DNA of 41,474 bases from Planctomycetaceae bacterium (GTDB taxonomy: Bacteria; Planctomycetota; Planctomycetia; Planctomycetales; Planctomycetaceae). Within the stretch, counting starts at the first letter, position 1; each line of letters opens with the position of its first letter. Shown here piece by piece: positions 1,068-40,127 of this stretch. The stretch covers positions 1 to 41,474 of the forward strand of contig JAKFUG010000040.1 in the NCBI GenBank assembly GCA_021732785.1, in the 5' to 3' direction. The translations under genes and the position numbers were made by a program. The notes under the pieces were generated by a model. It had not been told where the DNA came from. It worked only from the letters and a program-made list of their open reading frames with translations, and searched no databases.

Positions 1068-2587
1068 CGTTCGTCACGGCGGTGCTCGGTTCGCTCCTCC
1101 GCGCGGTCGTGGTGACGGCGTTCGTCCTTGCCATCAGTCGGCAATGGTCGCGGCGTTTGAATCTCGTCGATGCGCGCTGGCGCGGCCTAACCTGGGCGTT
1201 CATTCTCGCTCCCGGTCTGGTCCCGGAACTATTGCTGGGCTATGCGTACGCACCGTGGGTGATCGGAAAGCCGCGTCTTGCGGAAATTGTCTGCACCCTA
1301 TTGCTCGGACTGCGGTTACTGCCCGTTGGCGTGATTGCGTGGCAGTTGACGCCGCCATCGCCACTCAGTCGATCCGCGTGGCATGTGCGCCGGATGACGC
1401 CGCGTGATCGTCGACAGATGATCGAATTGTTCCGTTGCTGGTGGGTCGGACCGATTCGCAGCACCATTCCCGCGGCGGCACTGGTGGGATTGCTCGCGTT
1501 CCAGGAGTTTGAACTCGCGGCGTTGTTGAAGGCCGTGAGTTGGACCAACTGGCTGTTCGTCAATCAGCAAATGGGACAGGCGTTTGCCGGTCTCGTTCGC
1601 GCGGCAACCGTTCCCGCGGTGCTGCAAATCGCGGTAATTGGTGCGGCGGTGATGTGTCTGCGTCCGAAATACGGCAACACGGCATCGACAGCATCTCATG
1701 TCGAGTTTTGTGTGCCACTGGCTCTGCCAGTGTCTTCGTTCTTGAGTGGTGATCGAGTTGGAAATGCAGAAGACACTGGCAGAGCCAGTGGCACACAAAG
1801 GCTGAAGCACTTGACCCGCTGGTTCCTGTGCGGCCTTATCTCCGCGTGGCTGTGCATGATCCTTGCATGGGCTTTCATCGTCATTGTGCCGTTGTCGTCC
1901 CTCACCTGGGGATTGCCCGCGGGGATTGTGCAACTGGCGGGGCAGGCGCTGCGCTGGCAGGGACTGCTGCGTGAGTTGCTGGGAAACGTCGCGGTGAGCG
2001 TGACCGCGGCGTGTGCGGCGTGGACGTTGGCCGCCGGTGTTCCCCCGGTCATTGACCGGGGGCGAAGACGGGGATGGGCGTTGCTCGTCGGCATCGCGTG
2101 TCTGCCGGGATTGTCGGGATCGCTCGTTCTCAGTCTCGGCATGTTGACCCTCTTTCAACGGTCGCTGTCGGGGCTCTACGATACGCCGGTGATGTGGGTG
2201 CTGGCGTCGATTCTGTTCCTGTTGCCGCGGGCGGTGTTGTTGCGATTGTGGCTACAGCCGGCGGATGGTTCCGCGGTGATGATTGCTCAGAGTTTGTGTG
2301 CGTCGAACGATCCCTCACAGCGTCGTGCGGGACGGGCGCTGGTCTGGCGATTGCGTGACGAACCCCGTTTTCTCGCCGTTTGTTACCTGGCGTATGCGAG
2401 CTATCTCGAACTGACACTGGCGGTCTTGCTCGCCCCCACGGGGCTGCCCTCGGGGTTGGTGCGGCTGTACAATTTCCTGCACTTCGGCCGCACGGCGGCA
2501 TTGTCGGCGGAGATGACGGTGCTGCTCGGCGTCCCTTTATTCTTCGCCGCGGTGGTGTGGGGACTGGCTCGAAAAGGTCGCGTGTGA
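1064..2587 (+). CDS. Fe(III)-type ABC transporter permease, two fused BPD domains
   Basis: Integral membrane permease of the FbpB type: 507 residues with about twelve hydrophobic segments in two halves, moving the ligand delivered by the upstream binding protein. Start GTG 1064 is chosen because it makes a GTGA overlap with the upstream stop and lies 8 nt after AGGAG (1051-1055). The GTG at 1031 would overlap the upstream gene by 37 nt. Both halves carry sequence resembling the cytoplasmic coupling loop (EFELAALLK in the first, ELTLAVLLAP in the second). Residues about 215-245 are encoded by a 93-bp perfect foldback repeat inserted in frame in the linker between the halves. This stretch (FCVPLALPVSS...EDTGRASGT) has no counterpart expected in FbpB. 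The stop again forms GTGA with the next gene. Confidence 0.85.
   Translation: MTFVTAVLGSLLRAVVVTAFVLAISRQWSRRLNLVDARWRGLTWAFILAPGLVPELLLGYAYAPWVIGKPRLAEIVCTLLLGLRLLPVGVIAWQLTPPSPLSRSAWHVRRMTPRDRRQMIELFRCWWVGPIRSTIPAAALVGLLAFQEFELAALLKAVSWTNWLFVNQQMGQAFAGLVRAATVPAVLQIAVIGAAVMCLRPKYGNTASTASHVEFCVPLALPVSSFLSGDRVGNAEDTGRASGTQRLKHLTRWFLCGLISAWLCMILAWAFIVIVPLSSLTWGLPAGIVQLAGQALRWQGLLRELLGNVAVSVTAACAAWTLAAGVPPVIDRGRRRGWALLVGIACLPGLSGSLVLSLGMLTLFQRSLSGLYDTPVMWVLASILFLLPRAVLLRLWLQPADGSAVMIAQSLCASNDPSQRRAGRALVWRLRDEPRFLAVCYLAYASYLELTLAVLLAPTGLPSGLVRLYNFLHFGRTAALSAEMTVLLGVPLFFAAVVWGLARKGRV
1707..1799. repeat. Foldback repeat inside permease gene, 31-bp perfect arms
   Basis: Left arm 1707-1737 and right arm 1769-1799 are perfect reverse complements over 31 bp, separated by a 31-nt loop. 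Each arm contains a smaller palindrome, CACTGGC-TCT-GCCAGTG. The whole element is 93 bp, exactly 31 codons, so the frame is preserved. Transcribed, it would make a long hairpin in the mRNA of the permease gene. Confidence 0.95.
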
Positions 2588-4467
2588 ACAAGCCGTGTCT
2601 GTGGCGACTGGAGCACATCACCCAACCGGGCCGAACGCGGCCGCGGCTGGATGACGTCACGCTCGAGATTCCGGTCGGCATCACAGCGTTGTTGGGACCG
2701 TCCGGCAGCGGGAAGACGTCGTTGCTGAATTTGCTCGTCGGGTTTGAGCGGGCCACGTCCGGAACGATCACGCGGCCTATGGAAAGCCAGCCCCCCGGCT
2801 GCTCAGAAGCCGCCGGGGGGCTTTCCGCGCCGTCGGCATCCCAATCTGGAAGATTGCCATTGTTCTGGTCGCCCGCGGATCATGGTCTCTGGCCACATCT
2901 GACGGTGTGCGAGCATCTGCGCTCCGTGATGCCGGGAGGTGCCGGGCAGGACGTCACGATCGATCATCTGCTGAAGCAATTTGATCTCGCTTCATTGGCG
3001 AGCGTCTTTCCCGCTACGTTGTCGATGGGGGAACGCAATCGACTAGCGGTCGCGCGGGCGATTGCCAGCGGGGCGGACGTCATTGTGCTGGATGAACCGC
3101 TGGCCCACGTCGATGCCGCGCGGCGCGATCAAGGTTGGCAAGCGCTGCGGGAGTTCGCCGCCGAACATTCCATTATCTTTGCAACGCAGCAACCGGAAAC
3201 CGCATTGCAATACGCGGACTGGTTGATCGTGCTGAATGCAGGCCGCGTACTGGCAACGGGAACTCCACAAGAACTTTATGATTCGCCACCGGATCAGACG
3301 GTGGCAGCACTCACGGGACCGATGACGTGGCTGCCGGCGCGGGAAGCGGAATTGTGGACCACGCCGCCACATTCGGGGTGCCTGCGTCCCGAACGACTGG
3401 CGGTTGTCGAACAACCCGGATCGCCGTTGAGCGTTGCCGCTCACCGCAGCGCCGGCGTGTTCGATGCCGTCGACATCGCCCATCTGCAAACCGGCGACAT
3501 TGCGCGGACGTTTCTCACCACGCCGTCTCGCACGCGCTTTGCGCCGGGGACTGCCGTCGTGCTGCGATTGCTGTGGACGCTTCTCATTGCCATCAGCATT
3601 TGCGGCTGCCGTCCCAACGCGGAAACGAATATCGCCCCGGTTGCCGAACGGACATGGTCGCTCCCCGCGGACGGGACGAAAGTTCCCGCCCCGCGCGGCA
3701 TCACCGCCGGGCCGCAGGGGGAGATTTACGTTCTCGACAACATCGGCCGCGTCCTCGTGATGGACGACAAAGGAGGCCTCACGCGGTCGTGGTGGATGCC
3801 CGAGTACAGCGTCGGCAAGCCCGAACGGTTGCTCGTCTGCCGCGATGGCCGCCTCGCCGTTGCCGACACGCATTATCACCGCGTGGTGATTTTCAACGAG
3901 CAGGGTGAAGTGCTCACCATGTTCGGCCGCCGCGGTTCCGGTCCCGGCGAATTCGAGTACCCGGTGGCGATCGCGGAAGACGACCGTGACAATCTGTACG
4001 TGTGCGAGTATGGTGGCAATGACCGTGTGCAAATCTTTCGTCCTGACGGAACCTACGTGAGCACGTTCGGCAGCTTCGGTACCGGTCCCGGTCAATTTCA
4101 ACGACCGAGCGGCATCGTCTGGCGGGACAAAAAACTGTACATCGTCGATGCCTTTAACAATCGAGTCCATGTCTGTGATGAAACAGGAGCAGCGGTCTCG
4201 TTGCCACCGGGGGCGTTCAGCGCCGAGTTGCATTATCCGTACGATGTCAGCCTGACGGAGGAGGGAACCGTGTACGTCGTGGAGTATGGAGCGGGCCGGG
4301 TAACGTGGTTCAGCAACGACGGAAAACTCCTCGGACGCACGGGCACAACGGGCGGCGGAACAGGGCAACTTTACACGCCGTGGGGATTGAGCGTGGATCA
4401 ACACGGTTCGGTTTTCGTGGCGGATACGGGAAATCGCCGTGTGGTGCATTGGATGTTGAAGAAGTGA
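2584..4467 (+). CDS. ABC transporter ATPase fused in frame to NHL beta-propeller
   Basis: The first about 325 residues are an FbpC-type ATPase. Walker A is GPSGSGKT (38-45), the signature is LSMGE (146-150) instead of LSGGQ, and Walker B is VIVLDEP (D170, E171). The switch histidine position reads Gln (ATQQPE, Q202). A C-terminal TOBE-like segment ends in APGTAVVLRL. Without a stop the frame continues into a hydrophobic stretch ending ISICGC and then six NHL-like blades (for example GNDRVQIFRPDGTYVSTFG and DTGNRRVVHW). Total 627 residues. Start GTG 2584 overlaps the permease stop (GTGA). Internal GTG 3559 or TTG 3568 could start a separate lipoprotein. A palindrome is embedded at residues 66-81, before the Q-loop region. 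A true fusion, or two proteins from one frame, are both possible. ATPase activity is uncertain given the altered motifs. Confidence 0.8.
   Translation: MNKPCLWRLEHITQPGRTRPRLDDVTLEIPVGITALLGPSGSGKTSLLNLLVGFERATSGTITRPMESQPPGCSEAAGGLSAPSASQSGRLPLFWSPADHGLWPHLTVCEHLRSVMPGGAGQDVTIDHLLKQFDLASLASVFPATLSMGERNRLAVARAIASGADVIVLDEPLAHVDAARRDQGWQALREFAAEHSIIFATQQPETALQYADWLIVLNAGRVLATGTPQELYDSPPDQTVAALTGPMTWLPAREAELWTTPPHSGCLRPERLAVVEQPGSPLSVAAHRSAGVFDAVDIAHLQTGDIARTFLTTPSRTRFAPGTAVVLRLLWTLLIAISICGCRPNAETNIAPVAERTWSLPADGTKVPAPRGITAGPQGEIYVLDNIGRVLVMDDKGGLTRSWWMPEYSVGKPERLLVCRDGRLAVADTHYHRVVIFNEQGEVLTMFGRRGSGPGEFEYPVAIAEDDRDNLYVCEYGGNDRVQIFRPDGTYVSTFGSFGTGPGQFQRPSGIVWRDKKLYIVDAFNNRVHVCDETGAAVSLPPGAFSAELHYPYDVSLTEEGTVYVVEYGAGRVTWFSNDGKLLGRTGTTGGGTGQLYTPWGLSVDQHGSVFVADTGNRRVVHWMLKK
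2781..2826. repeat. Palindromic repeat inside ATPase gene
   Basis: AGCCCCCCGGC (2789-2799) pairs perfectly with GCCGGGGGGCT (2812-2822) over 11 bp with a 12-nt loop. GGAAAGCC on the left and CTTTCC on the right extend the symmetry. It lies in frame in the ATPase, encoding about 15 residues (MESQPPGCSEAAGGLS) where FbpC proteins normally have a short beta-hairpin. Confidence 0.85.
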
Positions 4468-4498
4468 AAACCATGATGAATGACCCGTCCGGATGTGG

Positions 4499-4620
4499 TC
4501 CCTTCGCCCCCGTCTGCGGGGGAGAAGGTGTCCGAAGGACGAATGAGGGGGCCATGCGTTTCAATCCGCCCCCTCACCCTAACCCTCTCCCCCGAGTACG
4601 GCGGGAGAGGGGACCGGAGT
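4499..4620. repeat. Dispersed CCTTCTCCCCCG palindromic repeat, copy 1
   Basis: Contains the hairpin CCTTCGCCCCCG-tctg-CGGGGGAGAAGG (4501-4528), then TGAGGGGGC paired with GCCCCCTCA across a 15-nt loop, then CTCTCCCCC paired with GGGAGAG. The same module starts a second copy at 41399. It fills the gap between the ATPase/propeller gene and the 1,000-residue VWA gene and could act as a terminator for the importer operon. Confidence 0.85.
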
Positions 4621-4667
4621 TGCGGGCGCTGGGATTCCGCTAATCGCAAGCGAAGATGGTTTCTCCC

Positions 4668-4692
4668 ACTGACAACGAACCACTGACAACTC
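4668..4692. repeat. Short CACTGACAAC tandem, possible foldback arm
   Basis: CACTGACAAC occurs twice, 4 nt apart, ending two bases before the ATG at 4694. It resembles the single arms of the foldback hairpins elsewhere in the window, but no complementary arm is seen here. It leaves the VWA gene without an obvious Shine-Dalgarno sequence. Confidence 0.5.
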
Positions 4693-4693
4693 C

Positions 4694-7600
4694 ATGACTT
4701 CCCTCCGCCGCTTCCTGCTGACCCTTTTTCCGCCGCCGCGGAAGCCGGTCACATGGCGCGCGGGGATTTCGCTGGCGGTCTTTGCGGTGCTGTTCGCGGG
4801 GACTGTGATTGGCCTGGAACTATCGCACACCCTATTATTTTCTCGACCCGCGGCGTTTGGACTCAGCATCTTTGCCGGGTGGCTCTGGTGGCTGCATGTC
4901 GCGGGATATGCCGGATTGCCGGCGGTTCGCGGAGAAGTCGCCCTCTGGACACGGTTGCTGCTGTTCGCGCTGATGGTGATGGTCCTCGCCGAGCCGCGCG
5001 CCGTGCGGACGCGCGATGTCGTCTCGACGATGTATCTCGTCGACGTCTCCGATTCGATCCGTCACGACAGCGTGGACGCGGCAACGAAGTACGTCATCGA
5101 TTCCGTCGAAAAGAAGCCGAAGAACGATGAAGCCGGATTGCTGATTTTCGGCAAGACCCCGGCCGTCGAGTTACCGCCGCGCGTGAGTTTTCCGTACGAA
5201 GCCCGCAATTCGCAGGTGAGCGGCGGGGCGACGAACATTGAACAGGCGCTGTCCCTCGCCGCGGCGATGCTGCCCGACGACAATCAATCCAAACTGGTCG
5301 TCATCAGCGACGGCGTGCAGACCGAAGGGAATCTGTCGCGCGTCCTCGACGATCTCAAATCCCGCGGCATCTCCGTGGATGTCCTCCCCGTCGATTATTC
5401 CTACGACAAGGAAGTGTGGCTCGAACGGCTCGACCTGCCGCAACAGGTGAAGCTCGGCGAAACCTACGAAGCCGCGATGGTTCTTTCCTCGCTGAATGAA
5501 GGCCAAGGAAAACTCACGCTGCGTGAGAATGGGCAGACCATCGCCGAGCAGAACATCAAATATCAACCCGGCAAGAACCGGTATACCGTGCCCTTGGCGT
5601 TGCGGTCCGCGGGGTATTACGAGTACACCGCCACCATCGAAGTTGACCGCACGGAAGACAGCCTGCCGCAGAATAACACGGTCCTCGGCTACATCTTCGT
5701 CGAAGGCGAAGGCAAAGTCCTGCTCGTCACAGATCCTGCCGGCAAGGTGGACGACTGGCAGCCGCTCGTCAAAACGCTGGAAGAAGCCGAACGGTCCGTC
5801 GAAGTCATTTCGGCGTTCGATTTCCCCAGCGAAACTCCGGCACTGATGCCGTATGACGCCATCATTTTTTGCAACGTGCCGTACGACGCCTTTGGCATCG
5901 ACCAACTGAACGGACTCAAAGAAGCGGTCTACAACGTCGGCGTCGGCTTCATGATGATCGGCGGCAAAAACAGCTTCGGCGCGGGGGGCTGGCATCGGAC
6001 CGTTGTCGAAGAAATCCTGCCCGTCACGATGGACATCTCGAACAAGAAAGTGCTCCCCAAGGGAGCGCTCGCCATCATTCTGCACACCTGCGAATTCGCC
6101 GACGGCAACACGTGGGCCAAGCGAATCAGCAAGCAGGCGATCAAGGTCCTCAGCGCGCAGGACGAAGTCGGCATGCTGGCCTACGACTTTCAGAACGGCG
6201 AAGACTGGCTGTTTGAACTCACGCCCGCCGGGGAATATGAAAAGCTGGTGCCGCTCATCGAAGGGGCCCAGATCGGCGACATGCCGAGCTTTCAATCGAC
6301 GATGGAAATGGGCCTTGCCGGGCTGAAAAAGAGCGATGCGGCAACGAAGCACATGATCATCATCTCCGATGGGGACCCGTCGCCGCCGACGCCGATGCTG
6401 ATGCAGGATTTCGTCGACGCCAAGATCAGCGTCTCGACCGTCGCCGTCTATCCCCACGGCGGCGTTGAGCAACAGTCGCTGCAAACCATCGCCAACATCA
6501 CCGGCGGGCGGTACTACTTCGTCAATGAGAACCCCGAGGTGCTCCCGGCGATCTTCATCAAGGAATCGAAGACGCTGAAGCGTTCGATGGTACAGAACAA
6601 AACCATCGCCCCGCAGTTGGGATTCCCGTCGCCGGTGATGAAGGGAATCACCGGCGTGCCGAAGCTGCATGGATACGTGCTGACCAATGCCAAGCCCGCA
6701 CCGGCGATGACGATTCTCAACGCCCCACCGGAAGCCGAAGACCCCGGTCAGCAAGACCCGATTCTCGTCGTCTGGCAGCACGGCCTCGGCAAGACCGCGG
6801 CCTTCACGTCCGATTTGTCCCCCAACTGGGCCGCGGACTGGCAATCGTGGGAGCATTATCAGGCCTTTGTGAAGCAACTCATCACCGATATTTCCCGTGT
6901 CCGCAAGCAGGGTTCACTGCGGCTGTCCTCCTACACCAACGGCGGCGAAGCGGTGATCGTGGTGGAAGATTTTCACAGCGAGGAACAGTTCCTCGAAGTC
7001 AACGCCAAGCTCAACGGCCCCGGCGGCAAGTCCGAAAGTGTGCGGCTGAAGCAAGTCGCCCCGCGGCGTTATCAGGCCAACGTGCCGCTCTGGGGACACG
7101 GCCGTTATCACGTTTCATCCACCGGCAAAGGAGGAGACCGTGACGAAACCGCATTCGGCGGATTCATCGTGCCATACTCACCCGAGTACCTGCGGTTCCG
7201 CTCGAATCGGCAAACGCTGTCCGACATCGCCAGTCGCACCGGGGGTCGCGTGCTGTCGGGAACCGTCGCCGAGGACACGCAGTCCAAAGCCGAGCGGGTT
7301 CCGAAACGAACCTCGCGGCCGATCTTCGATTGGTTTCTGATGGCGCTGGCGATCCTGCTACCGCTCGATGTCGCCGTGCGGCGGATTCAACTCGACTGGT
7401 CCGCGATCTGGCAAACGCTCACTTGGCGGAAGCGTGCTCCCACCACAGCGACAATGGGAACGCTGCTCGATCGCAAGGCACAGGTGCAATCCGCATTGCA
7501 AGCCCGCAAGGAAGAACGCCCGATGCCGCCGCCAAAACCGACGACATCAACATCCAAACCACGTCCGCAATGGCCGAAACCGGAAGCGGCCGCGAAGCCA

Positions 7601-7696
7601 CCGGAAGCACCGCCCCCGACACCGGGTGGGGCGATGTCGACTACCGAACGACTGTTGAAGCTGAAAAAACAACGCGAAGATGAGCCCAAGGAATAG
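4694..7696 (+). CDS. Large membrane protein with von Willebrand A domains
   Basis: A 1,000-residue membrane protein that opens the MoxR/VWA operon. There are three hydrophobic segments near the N-terminus (about 24-42, 52-77, 84-99), then a VWA domain with an intact MIDAS motif DVSDS (D117, S119, S121) and the strand VVISDGVQTEG. A middle section reads MMIGGKNSFGAGGW, the type of loop found in glutamine-amidotransferase-like folds. A second VWA-like region follows (IIISDGDPSPPTP), with a degenerate first metal motif (ILHTCEF). A C-terminal membrane helix (FLMALAILLPLDVAVR) and a proline/lysine-rich tail close the protein. This architecture is common beside MoxR and DUF58 genes in planctomycetes. 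The family role (metal-dependent protein contacts, envelope assembly or stress) is only loosely known. The RAYT element lies directly after its stop. Confidence 0.8.
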   Translation: MTSLRRFLLTLFPPPRKPVTWRAGISLAVFAVLFAGTVIGLELSHTLLFSRPAAFGLSIFAGWLWWLHVAGYAGLPAVRGEVALWTRLLLFALMVMVLAEPRAVRTRDVVSTMYLVDVSDSIRHDSVDAATKYVIDSVEKKPKNDEAGLLIFGKTPAVELPPRVSFPYEARNSQVSGGATNIEQALSLAAAMLPDDNQSKLVVISDGVQTEGNLSRVLDDLKSRGISVDVLPVDYSYDKEVWLERLDLPQQVKLGETYEAAMVLSSLNEGQGKLTLRENGQTIAEQNIKYQPGKNRYTVPLALRSAGYYEYTATIEVDRTEDSLPQNNTVLGYIFVEGEGKVLLVTDPAGKVDDWQPLVKTLEEAERSVEVISAFDFPSETPALMPYDAIIFCNVPYDAFGIDQLNGLKEAVYNVGVGFMMIGGKNSFGAGGWHRTVVEEILPVTMDISNKKVLPKGALAIILHTCEFADGNTWAKRISKQAIKVLSAQDEVGMLAYDFQNGEDWLFELTPAGEYEKLVPLIEGAQIGDMPSFQSTMEMGLAGLKKSDAATKHMIIISDGDPSPPTPMLMQDFVDAKISVSTVAVYPHGGVEQQSLQTIANITGGRYYFVNENPEVLPAIFIKESKTLKRSMVQNKTIAPQLGFPSPVMKGITGVPKLHGYVLTNAKPAPAMTILNAPPEAEDPGQQDPILVVWQHGLGKTAAFTSDLSPNWAADWQSWEHYQAFVKQLITDISRVRKQGSLRLSSYTNGGEAVIVVEDFHSEEQFLEVNAKLNGPGGKSESVRLKQVAPRRYQANVPLWGHGRYHVSSTGKGGDRDETAFGGFIVPYSPEYLRFRSNRQTLSDIASRTGGRVLSGTVAEDTQSKAERVPKRTSRPIFDWFLMALAILLPLDVAVRRIQLDWSAIWQTLTWRKRAPTTATMGTLLDRKAQVQSALQARKEERPMPPPKPTTSTSKPRPQWPKPEAAAKPPEAPPPTPGGAMSTTERLLKLKKQREDEPKE

Positions 7697-7699
7697 TAT

Positions 7700-7735
7700 T
7701 TGGCGAGCGGGGGGACGTAAGTCCCCTCGGTGATT
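7700..7735. repeat. Left inverted repeat of RAYT unit
   Basis: Begins TTGGCGAGCGGGG and ends CGGTGATT. It contains an internal hairpin GGGGAC-GTAA-GTCCCC. It is the reverse complement of 8329-8364 with one mismatch (T for C). Confidence 0.9.
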
Positions 7736-7755
7736 GAATCGCATTTGGATTTCCC

Positions 7756-8370
7756 GTGCAGCGCTATTGGCTCCTAACATGGACGACTTACGGAACCTGG
7801 CTCCCAGGCGACCCGCGCGGGTTCGTCGGCCGTGTGCGCATCGCCGATGGAATCCGCGATGAAGCCAATCAATTCCAGGCCGAGCCTCACCGTGCCTCGC
7901 AACCTTTACTGGCCAACTCCGTTCAAACTCTCAAGCAAACTCCTGTTCGTTTGAATTATTCTCAGGCCGATCTACTGCTCCAGCAATTTCGAGAAACTGC
8001 GAACTATCGTCGATGGATTATTGCTGCCGGCGCAGTGATGTCTAATCATATCCATCTGGTTGTCGGTGTTCCGGATGATCCAGAACCGTCAACATTGCTG
8101 CGGGATTTCAAAAGCTATGGTAGCCGTGTGTTGAATCGCACCACCGATATCCCAGCGGGACACAAATGGTGGACGGAGCATGGATCAACGCGAAAACTTG
8201 CCGATGAGACAGCGCTGTCGAATGCAATTGCGTATGTGATGCAGCAAGAGTTTCCGTTGGTTGTTTGGACGGACCAAGAGTGGATCCGAACGAACTTGCC
8301 GAACAGAATCGATGAGTTGAATCAAGAGAATCACCGGGGGGACTTACGTCCCCCCGCTCGCCAAGGATAA
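7756..8370 (+). CDS. REP-associated tyrosine transposase (RAYT, Y1/HUH family)
   Basis: A 204-residue protein of the IS200-like Y1 transposase superfamily, the RAYT branch that is linked to REP palindromes. It starts WLLTWTTYGTWLPGDPRG, a very typical opening for this family. The HUH metal motif is HIHLVV (H98, H100), preceded by AGAVMSN. The candidate nucleophile is Y160 in NAIAYVMQQE. The start is GTG 7756 and no in-frame ATG is better placed. The last about 14 residues (ENHRGDLRPPARQG) are encoded by the right inverted repeat, which also lies just ahead of the stop. By family knowledge RAYTs nick and rejoin single-stranded REP hairpins. Acting on the palindromes in this window is inference. 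Its gene is complete, so it could be active. Confidence 0.88.
   Translation: MQRYWLLTWTTYGTWLPGDPRGFVGRVRIADGIRDEANQFQAEPHRASQPLLANSVQTLKQTPVRLNYSQADLLLQQFRETANYRRWIIAAGAVMSNHIHLVVGVPDDPEPSTLLRDFKSYGSRVLNRTTDIPAGHKWWTEHGSTRKLADETALSNAIAYVMQQEFPLVVWTDQEWIRTNLPNRIDELNQENHRGDLRPPARQG
8329..8364. repeat. Right inverted repeat of RAYT unit
   Basis: Contains the perfect 9-bp hairpin CGGGGGGAC-TTAC-GTCCCCCCG flanked by AATCAC and CTCGCCAA. The AAGGAT that follows directly (8363-8368) is the best Shine-Dalgarno for moxR at 8374, so the element edge contributes to the translation signal of the next gene. Confidence 0.9.
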
Positions 8371-8373
8371 AGC

Positions 8374-9372
8374 ATGACCGACCCCGCAGCATTACAGGAA
8401 GAAGCCCGTCAGTTTCAACGCGATTTCGGCTCGGCACGCGAAATGATCGGCCGCGTGATTGTGGGCCAGCAACGGACCGTGGAAGCCGCGCTCGTCGCCA
8501 TTTTTGCGGGCGGGAATGTGCTCCTCGAAGGGGTGCCCGGCCTCGGCAAGACGGAACTGGTGAAGGCGTTGTCGCGCGTGCTCGATCTCGAGTTCCGCCG
8601 CATTCAGTTCACGCCCGATCTGATGCCCGCGGACATCATCGGTACGAACATCATGAATACCGACGACCAGGGCCGGTACCGCTTCGAGTTCCGCAAGGGG
8701 CCGATCTTCACGCAACTGCTGCTCGCGGATGAAATCAACCGCGCGTCGCCGAAGACGCAATCGGCGCTGCTCGAAACGATGCAGGAGCAGTCGGTCACCA
8801 CCGGCGGGACGATCCACTACCTCACGCCGCCGTTTTTCGTGCTGGCGACGCAGAACCCGATCGAACAGGAAGGGACGTACCCGTTGCCGGAAGCGCAGCT
8901 CGACCGGTTTTTGTTCAAGGTGACGGTGCCGTTCCTCAATCGTGATGAACTCAACGAAGTGGTGAGCCGGACGATTCTCAAAACGGCGGTCGACTTGCCG
9001 AAGCTGCTCGATGGCCCGCGGATCATGGAGTGCCGCAAGACCCTGGATAAAGTCGTGGTGACGGATGCGCTGCGGGATTACGCCTGCCGGTTGGTGCTCG
9101 CGACGCATCCCGATTCCGAGTTTGCGACGCCGCGAGTGAAACAGTTCGTCCGCTGGGGAGCCAGCCCGCGCGCGGCGCAGGGATTGATCCGCGCAGCCCG
9201 CGTGCGTGCTCTGGCGGAGGGCCGCGCCCATGTGGCCTTCGAAGACATCCGCCATTTTGCGGGTGAAGTCCTGCAACACCGCGTGCTGTTGAACTATGAC
9301 GGCCAAGCGGAAAATATCGTGGTAACGGAGTTGGTCACCGAATGCGTCCGCGGCTTGGCGGAAGCGATGTGA
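8374..9372 (+). CDS. MoxR-family AAA+ ATPase
   Basis: AAA+ ATPase of the MoxR class, thought to act as a chaperone that works with VWA and DUF58 partner proteins. 332 residues, the normal length. Walker A is GVPGLGKTEL, Walker B LLADEINRASPKTQSALLE, and sensor-1 FFVLATQNPIEQEGTYPLPEAQLDRF is fully conserved. The C-terminal lid contains the family motif SPRAAQGLIRAAR. The ATG lies 4 nt after the RAYT stop, with AAGGAT upstream. It is followed by DUF58 and two VWA-type genes in the same direction, the standard order for this system. The call is firm. The client in this organism is unknown. Confidence 0.95.
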   Translation: MTDPAALQEEARQFQRDFGSAREMIGRVIVGQQRTVEAALVAIFAGGNVLLEGVPGLGKTELVKALSRVLDLEFRRIQFTPDLMPADIIGTNIMNTDDQGRYRFEFRKGPIFTQLLLADEINRASPKTQSALLETMQEQSVTTGGTIHYLTPPFFVLATQNPIEQEGTYPLPEAQLDRFLFKVTVPFLNRDELNEVVSRTILKTAVDLPKLLDGPRIMECRKTLDKVVVTDALRDYACRLVLATHPDSEFATPRVKQFVRWGASPRAAQGLIRAARVRALAEGRAHVAFEDIRHFAGEVLQHRVLLNYDGQAENIVVTELVTECVRGLAEAM

Positions 9373-9373
9373 A

Positions 9374-9467: not shown

Positions 9468-9474
9468 TTCCCCC

Positions 9475-10368: not shown

Positions 10369-10377
10369 GACGCGCGA

Positions 10378-10487
10378 AAAGCAGAAGGCAGAAAGCGGAA
10401 AGCCAGTCGGACGGACCGATTCTTTCTCGGCACGCACTTCATGAGTCTTGCCTGGCTTTCCGCCTTCCGCTTTCCGCTTTCCGCCAA
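10378..10487. repeat. Foldback hairpin with degenerate GGAAAGC-type arms
   Basis: Left arm (10378-10406) is AGCAGAAGGCAGAAAGCGG followed by AAAGCCAG. The right arm (10448-10487) starts TTGCCTGGCTTTCCGCC and continues as CTTTCCG repeats. The arms pair imperfectly, best at GGAAAGCCAG/CTGGCTTTCC. The 18-residue extension of the next frame upstream of ATG 10502 is only this repeat translated. Confidence 0.85.
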
Positions 10488-10501
10488 TGGGGAGGCCGCT
10501 C

Positions 10502-12403: not shown

Positions 12404-12439
12404 GAGATATGATCGCGTTGGAAGGGATCAGCGGGAAGA

Positions 12440-12591
12440 TAGTGCAAAATGATGAGTGGACAGTGCAAAGTGCAAAGTGGAAGAGGGAGGACGGGCGCTG
12501 GTGATCGCGCGAAGCGGCAAGCGTGGATTGATCGTCTTCTTCCTCATTTTTCACTTTGCATTTTTCACTTTGCACTTTGCACTCTCCTGAC
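12440..12591. repeat. Foldback hairpin with degenerate GCAAAGT arms, overlaps next gene start
   Basis: Left arm 12440-12488 contains AGTGCAAAGTGCAAAGTGG and ends GAAGAGGGA. The right arm 12536-12591 begins TCTTCCTCA and contains CACTTTGCACTTTGCACT. They are approximately complementary, with a loop of about 48 nt. The only upstream start codons of the next gene lie in the left arm, and the right arm encodes the hydrophobic core of its N-terminus. Confidence 0.85.
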
Positions 12592-14767
12592 TCCCGTTTC
12601 GATCGCTGCGGCGCCGCCCGCGACGACGTTGCCTCTTACCGCGGAATTATCCTCGCAGTCGCCGAAGTTGATTGTCGGCCGGGCCATGCCCACGGTGTGG
12701 GACCTCCGCAAGTTTCAGCCGGGTCTGATGGAAGGCCATTTCGAATTCCGTGTCGGGCTGAAAGACGTCGAATTCTATCGCTACACCACCGACGACATCG
12801 TGCTCTCTCAAGACGACACCATTCAACGCTGGCTCTTCCCGCCCGTCATGGTCGATGCGGAATTGGAAGAAATCGAAATCGGCATCGTCTGGGTCGGGAA
12901 GTCCGGCCGGATCGCCTTGCCCATGCAACGGCTCATCGCCCCGACGACCGCCTCCCGCTCGGTGATGATTGCGTCGTGTGAAAATCGCGTGAGTTCCCTG
13001 CGCTCCCGCTCGTGGGAAAGCCGGTTGGCGAATCTCAAGCTCGAATCGTTGGCTCCCAGCGTCCATCGCTCCATGATTCCCCCCATCCAATCGATCGTCG
13101 TCTCGTGGGATTCCACCAGCGTGCCCAGCGACCCCTTCACTTTGGCCGCGTGCGATCTCGTGGCGATCTCGAGCGAAGTCTTTGCCCAGCTACGCCGCCC
13201 GCAACTCGATGCGCTCGCCGTCTGGGTCTTCGCCGGGGGACGGCTCTATCTCGAACCGGGCGGCCTGCTGGAAACGGCGCACATCGACTTTCTCAACCGC
13301 ATCGCACCATCGGCATCGGGACCGGCATGGAGACTCGATCGCACCGGCAAGATTGAATGGCCGGTCGTCTTCGATCCCCATTTGCGCTCGACCGCGGCGG
13401 GCTTCGGCCGCGTCCTGATCGACGATCCGCTCGATCTCGATCACAGCCCGGAATTGGAACATCGCCTCGCCCTCTGGGAGATTCCCGCGCAGATTCCAAC
13501 GCGATTCGTTCCGTGGTTCGTCACGCTGGGCACCAAACAGGGGGCCAACGGCCAGCTCTGGCCCGGTTCGCGGATCGATTACGACAACATGAACAATGTT
13601 CCGAACCGCATGTATTATCAGCAGTCGCCACAGTCGAAGCTCGCCCTCACGGAACGCGCCCTGCCATCGATTGTCGCGGAACTGATGCCCACCAGCGTCC
13701 GCGTGATTCCGCTCCGCACCATCATTGTGATTCTGTCGGCCCTGGTCTTGCTGATTGGCCCGCTCGATTGGTGGATTCTCGGGCGCTTGCGGCTGCGGCG
13801 TTTCACCTGGGTCACCTGGCCCGCGGCGACCGTGCTGATGACCGCTTTGCTGATTGCCTTGTCGAACTCGTATCTGCAATCGACAGACCGTCCGCGTTCG
13901 CTGGTGCTCCACGATCTGGCCAACGACGGCCACATCGTCCGCAGCAATCATTTTCGGTTGGAATTCCCCCGGCAATCGCGCGACACGGTCGCCGATTTGC
14001 GGCAATCGGTCTGGATGCCATTGCGAGCCACGATGGAATCCCATCCGCAACTGGCCGGTTTGACGCCGCAAAATACTCAGCGCGATGATCGAACCTTGCC
14101 GTCGTTCACGGGCCGTGTGCCGCAGCGCTTTGAAGCTCGGCAAGCGGTCCGGCAATGGACGCCGCATCTCAGTCGGCAGTTTTCCTTCGGCACTCTCGAT
14201 GCCCCGCCGCCCATCGACTGGGACAAAGTCCCGCTGGCGAAGTATGCGAAAACGCCGCTGGAAGAACATCGCGTGCCGGACGACATCGTGGCCGCGATTC
14301 GTCAGCAACTCGGGGACCATGCCATCGTGGCGGTCTTTCATGAATCGGGCAAATGGTCGTGCGACGCCGCGCCACTGTGGATGGCACCGCGAGTCCGCAC
14401 GGTGATGACGCACGACTATTACGGCAGTGGTCAGCAGTTTCGAACGGGCGCCTACCCCACGCAGAGCTGGCAAACCGCACCGACGATGCTGAGCGATCTC
14501 ATCTGGCGGCTGACCGTGCCGCGCGGCAGTGCGCACAATAGTTCCACGTGGGGCGAAGCGTTGCTCGATGGCCGCCTGCGCGACATCCCGCTGCTCCGCC
14601 CGGATCAGCGCGACCAGCGCGTGCTCGCCGTCGTGATTCCCGGCGAAACGGAAACCGTCATCTACCGTCGCTGGATCACGGGCCCGCCGCCCCTGCCGAC
14701 TCCGAACACTCCACCGACACCGGTTCTCCCCAATCGCGTTCCTTCCCGATCCATCCGCATCCGGTAG
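12449..14767 (+). CDS. Large membrane protein of the MoxR/VWA operon, function unknown
   Basis: A 772-residue protein that I do not recognise beyond its context as the last member of the MoxR-DUF58-VWA operon. The N-terminal half is probably extracytoplasmic, followed by two membrane helices (TIIVILSALVLLIGPLDWWIL and WPAATVLMTALLIALSN) and a C-terminal part that is again probably outside. The topology needs a signal sequence, and the only one is HFSLCIFHFALCTLLTPVS ending in IAAAPP, encoded by the right arm of a foldback repeat. Starts ATG 12449 or ATG 12452 lie in the left arm. A later ATG (12687, MPTVWDLRKF) would give no export signal. The repeat has therefore probably replaced or reshaped the original N-terminus. 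A GATase-like or degenerate VWA fold in the first half (AVWVFAGGRLYLEPGGLLE) is possible but not shown. Confidence 0.75.
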   Translation: MMSGQCKVQSGRGRTGAGDRAKRQAWIDRLLPHFSLCIFHFALCTLLTPVSIAAAPPATTLPLTAELSSQSPKLIVGRAMPTVWDLRKFQPGLMEGHFEFRVGLKDVEFYRYTTDDIVLSQDDTIQRWLFPPVMVDAELEEIEIGIVWVGKSGRIALPMQRLIAPTTASRSVMIASCENRVSSLRSRSWESRLANLKLESLAPSVHRSMIPPIQSIVVSWDSTSVPSDPFTLAACDLVAISSEVFAQLRRPQLDALAVWVFAGGRLYLEPGGLLETAHIDFLNRIAPSASGPAWRLDRTGKIEWPVVFDPHLRSTAAGFGRVLIDDPLDLDHSPELEHRLALWEIPAQIPTRFVPWFVTLGTKQGANGQLWPGSRIDYDNMNNVPNRMYYQQSPQSKLALTERALPSIVAELMPTSVRVIPLRTIIVILSALVLLIGPLDWWILGRLRLRRFTWVTWPAATVLMTALLIALSNSYLQSTDRPRSLVLHDLANDGHIVRSNHFRLEFPRQSRDTVADLRQSVWMPLRATMESHPQLAGLTPQNTQRDDRTLPSFTGRVPQRFEARQAVRQWTPHLSRQFSFGTLDAPPPIDWDKVPLAKYAKTPLEEHRVPDDIVAAIRQQLGDHAIVAVFHESGKWSCDAAPLWMAPRVRTVMTHDYYGSGQQFRTGAYPTQSWQTAPTMLSDLIWRLTVPRGSAHNSSTWGEALLDGRLRDIPLLRPDQRDQRVLAVVIPGETETVIYRRWITGPPPLPTPNTPPTPVLPNRVPSRSIRIR

Positions 14768-14804
14768 GTCTCACTTCACCGCGTTTCTGAACGAGGACTT
14801 TCGC

Positions 14805-15896
14805 ATGGCGTCGGATTTCACTCCGATCCTCCCGGACGGACAGTTTCTGATCTTCCACGACAGCGGCCGCAATCTGCATGTGCGACTTGAAGGCCCGACG
14901 GTTTGGCTGACGCAACGACTGATCGCGGAACTTTTCCAAGTCTCCGTTAAAACCGCAAACGAGCATCTCGTCAATATTTATGACGAAGGCGAACTTGATC
15001 CGGCGGCAACCATCCGGAAATTCCGGATAGTTCAAACCGAGGGCAAACGGCAGGTTTCCCGGCTCGTCGACCATTACAACCTCGATGCCATTCTCGCCGT
15101 TGGCTACCGCGTCCGCTCTGCCGTCGGCACCGCGTTTCGACAATGGGCCACGGCGCGGCTATCGGAACTGCTCGTAAAAGGCTTCACGCTTGACGACGAA
15201 CGGATCAAGGCGGGCAAAACACTCGGCGATGAATACTTCGACGAACTCCTCGCCCGCATTCGCGATATCCGTTCCAGCGAGCGGATGTTCTATCAAAAGA
15301 TCACCGACATCTATGCGACCAGCATCGATTACGACAACCATTCGCCGATCACGAAAGTGTTCTACGCCACGGTGCAGAACAAGCTGCATTGGGCCATTCA
15401 CGGTCATACCGCAGCCGAGATTGTCCGACTGAGAGCCGATGCAACTCAACCACACATGGGGCTGACCACCTGGAAGAACGCCCCCGCGGGACCGATCCGC
15501 AAGACCGACGTCACCGTTGCCAAGAACTATCTGACGCAATCGGAACTCGACGAACTGAATCGCGTCGTGTCGATGTATCTCGACTTCGCCGAAGATCAGG
15601 CCCGTCGCCGCAAGACGATGCACATGGCCGATTGGGCCAAGCGTCTCGATGCGTTCCTGCAGTTCAACGAACGCAACATCTTGACGCATGCCGGAAAGGT
15701 ATCGCATCTCTTGGCGGAGCAACACGCTCATGCCGAGTTTGAACGGTTTGATGCTGAACGCCTTCGCCTAGCCGACCAAAAACCGACGAGCGATTTCGAT
15801 CAAATCGTCGATGAGATGAAACGACTTGCCGAATCTTCTTCGATCACACCGCCGAGAAAGAAGGCAGCCCGCAAGAAGAAGCCCGGAGGCGAGTGA
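14805..15896 (+). CDS. RhuM-family protein
   Basis: A 363-residue member of the virulence RhuM family (Pfam Virulence_RhuM type), named from a Salmonella pathogenicity-island gene. Its biochemical activity is not established. Diagnostic stretches are VWLTQRLIAELFQVSVKTAN, a DNA-binding-like helix pair resembling KilA-N/Bro-N proteins, then DHYNLDAILAVGYRVRSAVG followed by TAFRQWA, and in the second half VFYATVQNKLHWAIHGHTAA. The C-terminus is lysine/arginine-rich (PPRKKAARKKKPGGE). The start is ATG 14805 with GAGG about 8 nt upstream. It follows the VWA operon by 37 nt in the same direction, but such genes are usually accessory cargo and are often found with defence or mobile DNA, so a shared function is not implied. 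Confidence 0.88.
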   Translation: MASDFTPILPDGQFLIFHDSGRNLHVRLEGPTVWLTQRLIAELFQVSVKTANEHLVNIYDEGELDPAATIRKFRIVQTEGKRQVSRLVDHYNLDAILAVGYRVRSAVGTAFRQWATARLSELLVKGFTLDDERIKAGKTLGDEYFDELLARIRDIRSSERMFYQKITDIYATSIDYDNHSPITKVFYATVQNKLHWAIHGHTAAEIVRLRADATQPHMGLTTWKNAPAGPIRKTDVTVAKNYLTQSELDELNRVVSMYLDFAEDQARRRKTMHMADWAKRLDAFLQFNERNILTHAGKVSHLLAEQHAHAEFERFDAERLRLADQKPTSDFDQIVDEMKRLAESSSITPPRKKAARKKKPGGE

Positions 15897-15945
15897 TCGT
15901 GAAAGCTCGGGAATTGTCGGTAGCCGTCACCTCGGACCGACGCTG

Positions 15946-17049
15946 CTACCAGCGTTCGTTCGGGCCGCTGGGAACCGGGATGTAGAGGTCGGGGAGGATG
16001 CCGGTGCGGTCGCCGCGGGCGGGGCCGTGGGCTTCAATTTGCGCAAGGGCATCTTCAAATGCAGCAGGCGTGGGGGCCTGATTGAGCAGGTTGCGGAGCG
16101 GGGCGGGAACGAGCATCGCTTTGGCGTACCAGTGGGCCATCTTGCGGAACATCGGAATGGCTGGCTGTTCGCCGTGGCGTTCCACCAAGTAGCCGAACTG
16201 GCGTCGCAGCAGGATCATACGGTCGTTGAACGTCCCCGCGGGGGTGAACGATCCGGTTTCTTCCCACTCCTGGAATTGCCGGAAAATCCACGGATTGGCC
16301 AAGGCCCCGCGGCCCATCGAAATGCCGTGGCAACCGGTCTCGTGCAGCATACCGATGCCATCGGCAACCGTGCGGATATCACCGTTGCCGATGACCGGAA
16401 TGCGGGACACCGCTTCGACCACCTGGCGGATACCGTCGCGGTTGACGACCCCCGAAAAGCCCTGTTCGCGCGTGCGGCCGTGAATCGCGACCGCGGCGAC
16501 GCCGAGCTGTTCAAACTCCCGCGCGAACTGTGGAGCCGTAAGTTGCGTGTCATCCCAGCCAAGCCGCATCTTCACGGTCACCGGCACGCGAACGGATTCG
16601 ACTACGGTCCGGACCAGTGTCATCGTCTGGTTCGGCTGACACATCATGCTCGCCCCGGCTCCAATCGCCGTGATGCGGGCCACCGGGCACCCCATGTTGA
16701 TGTCGATCGAATCGACTCCCCGGCCTTCCAGAAACTGTGCGGCGTCGCGCATCACTGCCGGTTCACTGCCGAAGATCTGCACGGCAAAGGGCCGATCTTC
16801 GGGACACGATTCGATGAGATGATGCGTCTTCTCGCCGCCGGCCATCAATCCCCGCGCATTGACCAGATCCGTGGTCCCCAGCCCCACACCGCCGAGGCTG
16901 CGGACGATGCGGCGAAAGGGCAAATTCGTATAACCGGCCAGCGGCGATAGCAGATACCGTGTGGGGAGGGCGAGCGGGCCGTAATGCAACGGACGCGATT
17001 GCAAACGGCGACGCAGGGATTCAATCGTGTCGGTGGGGAGGGAGTGCAA
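15946..17049 (-). CDS. tRNA-dihydrouridine synthase (DusB-like)
   Basis: Flavin-dependent enzyme that reduces uridine to dihydrouridine in the tRNA D-loop. 367 residues in the TIM-barrel Dus family. Visible signatures are LSPLAGYTNLPFRRI, DINMGCPVARI with the proton-donor cysteine C121, VTVKMRLGWDD, AAVAIHGRTREQGFSG (usually R-R-Y at the end) and VIGNGDI for FMN phosphate binding. The third residue of the motif usually written CPVKK/CPAPK differs (CPVAR). The start is uncertain: TTG 17049 is the only convenient codon, and it lies inside a GCAAAGT-type repeat arm (TTGCACTCCC on the coding strand). An alternative TTG start within the first 21 codons is equally possible. It is divergent from the glycosyltransferase gene. 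Confidence 0.92.
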   Translation of the reverse strand: MHSLPTDTIESLRRRLQSRPLHYGPLALPTRYLLSPLAGYTNLPFRRIVRSLGGVGLGTTDLVNARGLMAGGEKTHHLIESCPEDRPFAVQIFGSEPAVMRDAAQFLEGRGVDSIDINMGCPVARITAIGAGASMMCQPNQTMTLVRTVVESVRVPVTVKMRLGWDDTQLTAPQFAREFEQLGVAAVAIHGRTREQGFSGVVNRDGIRQVVEAVSRIPVIGNGDIRTVADGIGMLHETGCHGISMGRGALANPWIFRQFQEWEETGSFTPAGTFNDRMILLRRQFGYLVERHGEQPAIPMFRKMAHWYAKAMLVPAPLRNLLNQAPTPAAFEDALAQIEAHGPARGDRTGILPDLYIPVPSGPNERW

Positions 17050-17087
17050 AGTGGAGAATGCAAAATGAAAAGTGCAAAGTGGGGAAA
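17041..17087. repeat. Single GCAAAGT-type repeat arm
   Basis: GTGCAAAGTGGAGAATGC followed by AAAATGAAAAGTGCAAAGTGG, the same words as the left arm at 12440-12488. No complementary arm is seen nearby. It lies in the divergent promoter region of the Dus and GT39 genes and supplies the TTG assigned as the Dus start. Confidence 0.7.
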
Positions 17088-17194
17088 GACGCCCTGCCTA
17101 GTTTACGGTTTGCCGGATGCAGCGAAAAGTCGCAGCCGGGAGGCGGCGTGTCCATCGGGATGCACCCAACGGGGCGATCGGTTATTTTGGGACG

Positions 17195-18952
17195 ATGCCG
17201 CTGCCGTTGCTGAAACTGTCATCCGTGCGCCCCTGGTTCCTCCACGCCCTCGGGCCAGCACTGATTGCGCTCATCGCGTGGAGTTGGATCGTCACGCATC
17301 TCGATCCCGGGGGCAGCGATCCGACCAGCGGGGAAGGGCCGGGGTTGACGATTGATGAATCGTTCAACGTACAGAACGGCGTGCTCCTGGTGGAAGCGTG
17401 GGGGACTCCCGGCGCGGCACTGATTCTACCCGAATTGGCCCACGATGTTTTTCATCCGCGCGAAGGGTGGTACCTCAACGATCATCCACCGCTCGGACGC
17501 TTCTGGCTCGGCGTGCATCATCACCTTGCGTGGTGGTGGAAAGCCCCGCTCGATCCTCACGGACCGTTTGTAACGGCACGGGCGCGAACCGGTTCGGCGA
17601 CCGCGTTCGCCTTGACGATTCTGCTTCTCGGTGTCACGGCGTCCGTCTGGTACGGCCGCACGGTCGGCGTGCTGACGGCGATAATGTATGCCAGCCTTCC
17701 ACGCGTCATCGGCCATGCCCACATTGCATCGCTGGAGACCTTCACCAACCTCACCTACACCGCGGCCGTGATCGCCGTGGCCTCGGGATGGGGTCCCCCT
17801 GCATTACCCAACAAGAAAACCGCCGCGTGGACCGGGGCTGTCTACGGGTTGGCGTTGTTATCCAAAATGCAGGCGGTGTTCATTCCGATTCCGCTGACCG
17901 TGTGGGCACTGGTGCGCTGGCGACACCGGGCGGTATTGCCGCTGGTCCTCTGGGGACTGGCTGCGTTCGTGGTGTTCTTCGTCGGTTGGCCGACGCACTG
18001 GTTTGAACCGTGGATCTCCATCCCGAAGTATTTCCGCGGGGCGGCTGATCGCGCTGCCTTGTCCGTCTGGTTCAACGGGTTGCACTACACCGACAAAACC
18101 GTGCCGCGGATGTACGTGTTGATGACGTTTCTGCAAACCGTGCCGCTGGTGATTCCATTCATCGTGGTGATCGGCGTAGCGACCAGATTGCGGACGCAGC
18201 GTGCCACTTGGGAAAGTCGCCCTGTCGCTCCGCGACAGGAAAGCCGCACCAAATCAGAGCCGGCGACTTCATCGGCTTTCCTGCCGCGGAGCGACAGGGC
18301 TACGGGGGAGTGGCTCGTGCTCATGGAAGCCGTGTTCCCGTTAGTGATGTTCAGCCTGCCGCGCGTGCCGGTGTATGACGCCGAGCGGTTGTGGCTGCCC
18401 GCGTTGCCGTTGCTCGTGCTCTCCGCGGCGGCGGGACTCTCGGCGGCGTTGCAGTGGGCAAGTGTCCGAAGTGGACGGCTGGAAAAGGTTGCGGTTGTTG
18501 TTGCGGCTCTGGTGCTGGCGTTTCCCTTGTGGACAGCAACACGAATCGCACCGTGTGAACTGAGTTACGTTAACTTCACAAGCAGCGGGTTGGCTGGAGC
18601 CGAGCGCTCGGGGCAGGAACTCGATTACTGGGGCTGTGCAATCACGCGAACATTACTGACGGATGTCGTGAAGAACGTGCCGCGGGGGAGCACGATTGCG
18701 GTCGCGCCTGTGCTGCATCAGTTCCAGGTAGAAGAACTGCTCACGCAGTCACCGATTCTGCGAGCGCACGCTGTGAAGCTGGTGGCGTATGACCCGGCCG
18801 CACAGTCGATGGATTACGTGCTCCTCTTTCGCCGGCGGGCGGACCTCGACGCTAATTTGGAGAAGCGGCTGCGCGAGGGACCGCGTCTTGCCGAGGTCAT
18901 CCGCGAGGGAGTCGTGCTCGCCGGGTTGATTCCAGCGAAACGGGCGGAATAA
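17195..18952 (+). CDS. GT39/PMT-type membrane glycosyltransferase
   Basis: A 586-residue polytopic membrane protein of the GT-C class (dolichyl-phosphate-mannose protein mannosyltransferase/ArnT-like), which would transfer a sugar from a lipid-phosphate donor to an extracytoplasmic acceptor. The first luminal loop has the acidic pair in LTIDESFNVQNG and the family motif LNDHPPLGRFWLG (HPP). About ten hydrophobic segments follow. ATG 17195 (MPLPLLKLSS) is preferred because the preceding 26 residues of the open frame (from ATG 17117) are basic and without signal character. Residues about 342-369 are encoded by an in-frame foldback repeat, placed in a loop between two membrane helices (after VVIGVATRLR and before EWLVLMEAVF). 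Donor and acceptor are unknown. Confidence 0.82.
   Translation: MPLPLLKLSSVRPWFLHALGPALIALIAWSWIVTHLDPGGSDPTSGEGPGLTIDESFNVQNGVLLVEAWGTPGAALILPELAHDVFHPREGWYLNDHPPLGRFWLGVHHHLAWWWKAPLDPHGPFVTARARTGSATAFALTILLLGVTASVWYGRTVGVLTAIMYASLPRVIGHAHIASLETFTNLTYTAAVIAVASGWGPPALPNKKTAAWTGAVYGLALLSKMQAVFIPIPLTVWALVRWRHRAVLPLVLWGLAAFVVFFVGWPTHWFEPWISIPKYFRGAADRAALSVWFNGLHYTDKTVPRMYVLMTFLQTVPLVIPFIVVIGVATRLRTQRATWESRPVAPRQESRTKSEPATSSAFLPRSDRATGEWLVLMEAVFPLVMFSLPRVPVYDAERLWLPALPLLVLSAAAGLSAALQWASVRSGRLEKVAVVVAALVLAFPLWTATRIAPCELSYVNFTSSGLAGAERSGQELDYWGCAITRTLLTDVVKNVPRGSTIAVAPVLHQFQVEELLTQSPILRAHAVKLVAYDPAAQSMDYVLLFRRRADLDANLEKRLREGPRLAEVIREGVVLAGLIPAKRAE
18219..18300. repeat. Foldback repeat inside GT39 gene, 28-bp arms
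   Basis: Left arm 18219-18246 and right arm 18273-18300 are complementary at 27 of 28 positions with a 26-nt loop. Each arm contains its own palindrome (CCTGTCG-CTCCG-CGACAGG on the left). The reading frame stays open through the element and encodes polar residues (RPVAPRQESR...SSAFLPRSDRATG) in a probable loop. Confidence 0.93.
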
Positions 18953-28264: not shown

Positions 28265-28304
28265 GGTGCATCTCTTTGAAGAGGGTAGGGGATGTCGTGT
28301 CGCC

Positions 28305-40106: not shown

Positions 40107-40127
40107 CTGCTTTCCCAGTGTCGAAGA

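Follow-up and report, generated by a model that had tools for sequence, protein, structure and literature searches.

How do palindromic repeats come to lie within protein genes without destroying them? The question is raised by a stretch of 41,474 nucleotides from a Planctomycetaceae bacterium (contig JAKFUG010000040.1 of assembly GCA_021732785.1, our contig C52, from a genome of 6.69 Mb in 96 contigs), which is referred to in full as the window. Three of its genes, for an ATP-binding cassette (ABC) permease-like protein, an ABC ATPase and a GT39-like membrane glycosyltransferase, each carry a foldback element of a different sequence family. We think it highly probable (about 0.85) that these are repetitive extragenic palindromic (REP) elements, or REP doublets forming hairpins (REPINs), spread by REP-associated tyrosine transposases (RAYTs), lying mostly between genes, with selection acting as a filter on those that hit one.

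Three unrelated foldbacks lie in frame within protein genes

The genes and elements are as follows, a tag being the short motif beside a hairpin.

1064..2587, + strand, ABC permease-like gene, carrying an A doublet as residues 226-257 of the open reading frame 1031-2587
1707..1799, family A doublet (GTGTGCCACTGGCTCTGCCAGTG hairpin and its inverse), tag to tag 1710-1796, 87 nt, inside the permease gene
2584..4467, + strand, ABC ATPase fused to NHL/beta-propeller repeats, with a C hairpin at about residues 66-82
2781..2826, family C single hairpin (CCCCGGCTGCTCAGAAGC.GCCGGGG core), 46 nt, inside the ATPase gene
17117..18952, + strand, PMT/GT39-like membrane glycosyltransferase gene, carrying a B doublet (start at 17195 according to our home-made gene caller)
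18216..18303, family B doublet (GTAG or GTCG, then CCCTGTCGCTCCGCGACAGG, and the inverse), 88 nt, inside the GT39-like gene

The earlier note on this DNA had placed three unrelated foldback families within these genes with their frames open. Its positions agree with ours to within a few bases, the frames are open across all three elements, and each fold was equalled by 0 of 200 shuffles. The A element has perfect 31-nt arms and a 31-nt spacer, 93 nt in total, and folds as DNA with z = -11.4; the values are -8.3 for the B element (folded as 18213-18306) and -4.2 for the C hairpin (folded as 2777-2830). The B arms, given before as 27 of 28 bp within 18219-18300, are slightly longer: 31 nt each, at 18216-18246 and 18273-18303, and 94% complementary. 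The doublet structure of A and B, in which each arm is a hairpin of its own, was absent from that account. A single A arm forms a small hairpin equalled by 1 of 200 shuffles, and a single B arm one equalled by 0 of 200. Because the lone arms already fold as hairpins, we regard A and B as REP/inverted-REP doublets, as in REPINs. The element in the ATPase gene consists of one hairpin, and family C elsewhere is single or paired.

All three segments are missing from the aligned homologues, as the earlier note had anticipated. Among the best 14 of 29 homologous loci for each gene, the permease insert is missing from 14 of 14, the GT39-like insert from 14 of 14, some of which have unrelated long linkers there, and the ATPase insert from all 13 that cover the site. 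The ATPase segment is also missing from nine named relatives, one of which has a shorter segment of its own. In an AlphaFold2 model of the ATPase (mean predicted local distance difference test score, pLDDT, 82.8; predicted template modelling score 0.54; 10 sequences), the insert lies in a predicted disordered loop, with a pLDDT under 50 at residues 68-88, between ABC-domain strands 59-63 and 93-96, which agrees with the beta-hairpin location proposed before. Since the homologues lack the inserts and the families are repeated (see below), the segments are neither ordinary conserved residues nor unique sequences.

As to the genes themselves, the permease-like one has a match in 30 of the 59 searched genomes, source genome counted, and matches no Pfam family at E<=0.001; we retain the name from the earlier note because the gene precedes the ABC ATPase gene. 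The ATPase has Pfam domains ABC_tran (23-174) and NHL, and the ATPase-NHL beta-propeller fusion is also present in the nine aligned named relatives; relatives named among its 14 loci include Schlesneria and Planctomicrobium metagenome-assembled genomes. The GT39-like protein matches PMT_2 with E=4e-5 and 24.3 bits, slightly below the Pfam cut-off of 26.1.

Elements of the same families lie within further genes. An A doublet is carried by the gene of the DNA repair protein Mfd, named from its Pfam domains (C9:58289-61732, our locus L229). The Mfd insert is missing from 20 of 20 homologues (the best 20 of 29 loci), one of which has an unrelated insert at the identical spot, and by hand count the net gain is about 36 residues for an 82-nt doublet, larger than the doublet itself. 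In a CoA transferase an A insert lies between the protein halves, and homologues match in two pieces. Other hosts are a heparinase-like protein, a YfhO-like membrane protein (a weak Pfam match, below cut-off) and further membrane proteins. Two membrane-protein-like genes, C5:152334-154397 and C12:57341-60691, have one A and one B doublet each, at different sites. For the gene on contig C1, 'peptidase' is a presumptive label, suggested by its sequence.

The families are repeated throughout the genome

The sequences of A, B and C are mutually unrelated, and each is repeated in the genome, in line with the earlier note. With at most two mismatches, the whole genome contains 142 forward and 146 reverse half-sites of family A and 63 and 60 of family B (controls 0 and 0 for both). 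A C-like pattern occurs 16 + 10 times (control 1 + 1), and 38 family C hairpins were found in a 1.74-Mb sample (reversed-arm control 0). With at most one mismatch, A half-sites are present in 22 of the 59 searched genomes, again counting the source genome; a control pattern gave one match, in one genome. The source genome has 133+134, the highest count elsewhere is 126+140, in genome G026, and genome G031 has 110+113.

The characters of REP elements were found here: a palindrome with a foot tag, inverse pairs with a variable spacer, and a high copy number mainly between genes. The B palindrome is GTAG or GTCG followed by an 8-bp hairpin, and thus has the GTAG tag, the classical one for REPs; the tag of A is GTGT, and no GTAG was seen beside C. 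Because the GTAG tag is absent from them, we do not file A and C as members of the GTAG REPs, although they behave like them.

We also searched de novo for foldbacks in 1.21 Mb, comprising contigs C1, C2 and C3, 180 of the 219 kb of C5, and the window. This gave 210 foldbacks, 75 of them on C2, where Markov resampling of the contig gave none. They fell into 28 clusters of two or more and 20 singles; clusters do not correspond one-to-one with families, as a CATCACG hairpin falls in two of them and some are of low complexity. The imperfect C hairpin of the ATPase gene lies outside this list and was counted in the separate C survey.

Elements are depleted from genes

Genes were called with a home-made caller that requires an open frame and that missed the RAYT gene of the window. 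By its calls, 185 of the 210 foldbacks are intergenic, 17 partially overlap genes and eight lie inside them, two of these eight being unclustered inverted repeats. Clustered foldbacks are thus inside called genes in 6 of 190 cases (A 4/29, B 2/14, other clusters 0/147), or in 4 of 180 (A 3/28, B 1/13) when the window, selected by the finding itself, is left out. For family C the figure is one of the 38 hairpins in 1.74 Mb, solely that of the ATPase. Since called genes span about 80-88% of bases, we conclude that the elements are strongly depleted from genes.

The 1.74-Mb sample adds 60 further stretches picked around listed A and B copies, and so covers part of all A and B. It contains at least 81 A and at least 51 B doublets of variable length, half-sites without a partner within 260 nt being left out of the counts, and among the copies listed nine A and six B doublets lie inside genes. 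Thirteen of these 15 are at least 30 codons from both gene ends; the other two, both of family B, lie only 6-7 codons from a gene end and are not among the 13 internal copies considered below. At 10 gene ends, involving nine B doublets, the B tag supplies the TAG stop codon.

Internal copies belong mostly to one length class

We compared the tag-to-tag doublet length, L, between internal and other copies among 132 listed A and B doublets. L was 1 modulo 3 in 11 of the 13 internal copies, as against 38 of 119 others (Fisher p = 3e-4; p = 4e-4 in a permutation allowing any residue class), the class being taken by 8/9 internal copies of A and 3/4 of B. When the window's two copies are dropped, 10 of 11 internal copies remain in it (p = 2e-4). 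The commonest intergenic A lengths, 77 and 78, were never found inside genes among the copies listed. In a check without the open-frame requirement, six doublets had a strong coding signal on both sides; five of these are open and in frame, each belonging to the 13, and the sixth is not. Most simply, this would mean that each inserted unit exceeds its doublet by 2 nt modulo 3, copies of other lengths having been purged.

The arms of A are poor in stops: any one frame of the outer 28 nt contains a stop in at most 4 of 81 copies. The eight internal A copies with L = 1 mod 3 use the frames 5:2:1, a sample too small for a preference. Stop-poor arms as the sole cause of intragenic copies were considered and rejected, as families f1 and f8 are equally open and none of their copies in the de novo list is inside a gene.

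Y1 transposase genes beside the elements

A PF01797 search of the genome gave nine Y1_Tnp genes, eight above the cut-off and that on contig C12 slightly below. A protein search found at least two further RAYT-like genes missed by PF01797 (C22:89723 and C39:45160), so that nine is a lower bound. Four of the nine are bracketed by a single family each: that on C37 by two B doublets, that on C8 by C hairpins, that on C22 by f1, and that on C12 by the CGGTTTCGCG family. Bracketing by chance occurred in 1 of 309 called genes of 400-900 nt and in 31 of 100,000 random slots, values obtained with a coded criterion, the flanks of the RAYTs being read from the repeat lists. Beside the RAYTs on C2 and C11 a GGGTGGC foldback lies on a single side, and no foldback is close to those on C18, C10 and the window. 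A doublet of family f5 with a GTAG tag (C39:44994-45125, locus L263) directly adjoins the RAYT-like gene C39:45160-45648, on one side.

The association recurs in other genomes. A sister species, G002, has a RAYT 85% identical to that on C22 and likewise beside f1 (RAYT-to-RAYT identities cover plus-strand RAYTs; the frames of the A units were determined separately). RAYTs bracketed by A were found as two units in G001 (same genus) and one in G026 (another genus), and in all three the inverted A half-sites are 657 nt apart.

A-RAYT units, from two genera:
L361, 1176-1850
L364, 1167-1841
L366, 1107-1781

Such a unit has the look of a parent from which the A doublets came, and its fixed spacing suggests how doublets could arise from a larger element. 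A RAYT flanked by its own element, the arrangement of a REPtron, is thus found for B and C in the source genome and for A in G001 and G026 only.

One insert is shared between species and shows no visible amino-acid constraint

The A insert of the CoA transferase is common to the sister species G002, at about 85% amino-acid identity, and missing from seven other genomes. Its loop differs by 9 nt, in frame, so that L is 76 in one and 85 in the other (hand count). Over 25 aligned codons of the insert there are nine nonsynonymous and two synonymous differences, against 61 and 185 over the 486 codons of the main part; 22 linker codons beside the insert, set apart from the main part, have nine and seven. 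Such free amino-acid change argues for a tolerated spacer and against a selected new segment, and the comparison gives the insert the look of a spacer in a loose linker, of which the frame is kept and the sequence is not. An intergenic A doublet (C2:353797-353873) is also common to G002, with unchanged arms and a different loop and flanks, which hints at homogenisation of, or constraint on, the arms.

The earlier note had gone on to suggest that repeat insertion is a recurrent source of new peptides. The part of this that concerns insertions from repeated families stands; as a source of new protein segments they are limited by the few clustered foldbacks within genes and by the lack of constraint on the shared insert.

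Weighing the explanations

In the mechanism that we favour, A and B would be REPIN-like doublets and C a single hairpin, all non-autonomous, and each family would owe its spread to a Y1 HuH single-strand transposase (RAYT/TnpA-REP) of its own. Insertion would be largely indifferent to sequence and most copies that hit genes would be lost, those that persist sitting in linkers or loops and mostly in one length class compatible with the frame. Stop-poor arms would help, while leaving unexplained which families enter genes, and the encoded peptides would be spacers that the proteins tolerate, one or more of them having persisted through speciation. RAYT-driven movement, the single-strand mechanism and the selective filter are what comparisons of sequence suggest.

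Several observations weigh against this account. Two internal copies break the length rule, the permease element of the window itself (L = 87) and the heparinase-like element (L = 110), and for family B alone the length test is not significant (3/4, p = 0.23). The frames of f1 are equally open (107/144), yet there is no intragenic f1 copy. Five of the nine PF01797 genes lack a bracketing element on one or both sides. The source genome is without a close relative of the A transposase, the nearest protein having 33% identity, so that, barring a transposase gene hidden in an assembly gap, A would either be stranded here or depend on another RAYT to move it; and the A-RAYT copy of G026 has two TGA codons within the matched stretch. 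No movement of elements was observed, and no clean empty site was found from which an exact inserted length or a target duplication could be read. A syntenic region was present in the fetched G002 stretches for 31 of 300 catalogued elements, and in the 12 of these 31 alignments that were inspected the exact junction was not obtainable because the flanks were too diverged where the G002 copy is absent. Searches with joined flanks matched mainly the element's own place or related repeats and gave one useful nested case, in which an A element within a family-6 foldback (C3:245163) adds a net 83 nt where L = 77, that is L+6 (hand count). As this conflicts with the rule of L+2 modulo 3, we claim no boundary. 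Identical 2-5-mers on the two flanks were not flagged as being in excess for either A or B.

A benefit from the inserted peptides, for which selection would retain them as new protein segments, seems unlikely to us: one insert is indeed kept at an identical site across speciation with its loop changing length in frame, and A and B inserts occur together in one gene on C5 and one on C12, but the shared insert has nine nonsynonymous against two synonymous differences where the main gene has 61 against 185, the ATPase insert is predicted to be disordered, and intragenic copies are a small minority. Stable folds, a majority of intergenic copies and the use of the B-tag TAG as the stop at 10 gene ends could also be expected of RNA or DNA regulatory hairpins, placed for a function such as attenuation, mRNA stability or protein binding, with the coding effect incidental. 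We think this quite improbable, as the inserts are missing from aligned homologues, so that no conserved regulatory site is seen, and the length class modulo 3 points to translation rather than folding.

A home-made gene caller that demands an open frame could moreover turn an element between two genes, or in a broken gene left open, into a chance join, and two of the 15 'inside' calls are only 6-7 codons from a gene end. Such joins are very improbable as the explanation of the internal copies, since homologues are continuous through the site for the three window genes, Mfd and the CoA transferase, and 11 of 13 internal copies fall in one length class. Insertion of RAYT-spread REP/REPIN elements followed by selection thus remains the reading that we prefer. 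A tentative extension, for which we would claim rather less than even odds, is that in these planctomycetes parallel, independent RAYT/REP systems keep seeding in-frame spacers, some of which are inherited through speciation and could be recruited; if only copies of 1 modulo 3 survive in genes, the inserted unit would differ from the visible doublet by a fixed offset, 2 modulo 3, and the surviving copies would be a natural readout of transposase cutting.

Other features of the window

7756..8370, + strand, RAYT-like Y1 transposase gene (Y1_Tnp PF01797, above the 23-bit cut-off)
18953..19021, CGGTTTCGCG-family foldback, intergenic, directly 3' of the GT39-like gene
25875..26008, doublet of a fourth family (GTAG.CATCACGCTCCGCGTGATG), intergenic
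27064..27125, hairpin family of 25875-26008 in outward arrangement
28302..28402, pair of family C hairpins, intergenic

The RAYT of the window is 40% identical to that on C22. It has no inverted repeat of >=18 nt within 1.5 kb, and no half-site of A, B, D, f1 or f4-f6 and no exact C core alongside. The core of the foldback at 18953-19021 also flanks the C12 RAYT on both sides. Low-complexity inverted repeats at 40127-40280 (TTCCAA-type), 12438-12587 (TGCAAAG-type) and 10374-10485 (GGAAAGC-type) are also found at other places in the genome sample, and may represent a further class of repeats.

Relation to known systems

In what follows, R. baltica is taken to be the planctomycete Rhodopirellula baltica. 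A literature search on intragenic REPINs and RAYTs and on intragenic palindromes in planctomycetes found one paper alone, that of Di Nocera and colleagues (2013; PMC3733652), the available part of which describes REPs inside genes in several species, many of them in genes for repair, as well as numerous genes for tyrosine transposases in R. baltica that have repeats on their flanks. The earlier note had seen a novelty in the occurrence of in-frame palindromes in another phylum; this falls away, since the GTAG insertions described there are most numerous in Opitutus terrae, a Verrucomicrobium.

The GTAG REPs and REPtrons described in that part of the paper resemble the present elements in being GTAG hairpins, often inverted dimers, beside RAYT genes, with several families in some genomes and a mostly intergenic location; in using the TAG of the tag as a stop codon; in having some intragenic repeats that add 20-30 residues; and in having DNA repair hosts, here Mfd. 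Unlike them, A has the tag GTGT and C neither tag, and here the length class was counted against intergenic copies, an insert was followed across species, and a 657-nt spacing was found in the A-RAYT units. We found no count of length classes inside versus outside genes in the available part of PMC3733652, and do not claim that none exists in the literature.

REPINs, as described in the accessible part of Bertels and Rainey (2011; PMC3116915), are likewise inverted REP doublets with a spacer, acting as a replicating unit and proposed to be moved by RAYTs; doublets inside genes, as found here, are not mentioned in that part of the paper, and excision was seen there in sequencing reads where no movement was seen here. 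A palindromic repeat inserted in frame in open reading frames is the feature shared with the Rickettsia palindromic elements, a likeness by description (the available part of PMC3733652, and general background); here three families lie in the genes of one window. The TnpA-REP enzymes, in the part of PMC8266576 available, are also Y1 HuH transposases with a tag beside the hairpin; the planctomycete enzymes are described here from their sequences. GTAG is proposed there as a guide for cleavage at CT or CA, and by analogy the GTGT tag of A might imply another cleavage dinucleotide.

Intragenic palindromic insertion is thus known from other bacteria, and the present genome is a well-documented and countable new case. 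It puts numbers on the coexistence of selfish hairpins and protein genes, namely depletion from genes, a frame-compatible length class, copies tolerated in linkers and one that was retained across species. From sequence alone, the length class gives a handle on the ends of RAYT-mobilised units, and the insert in Mfd is a warning that REP-derived segments can hide inside conserved proteins.

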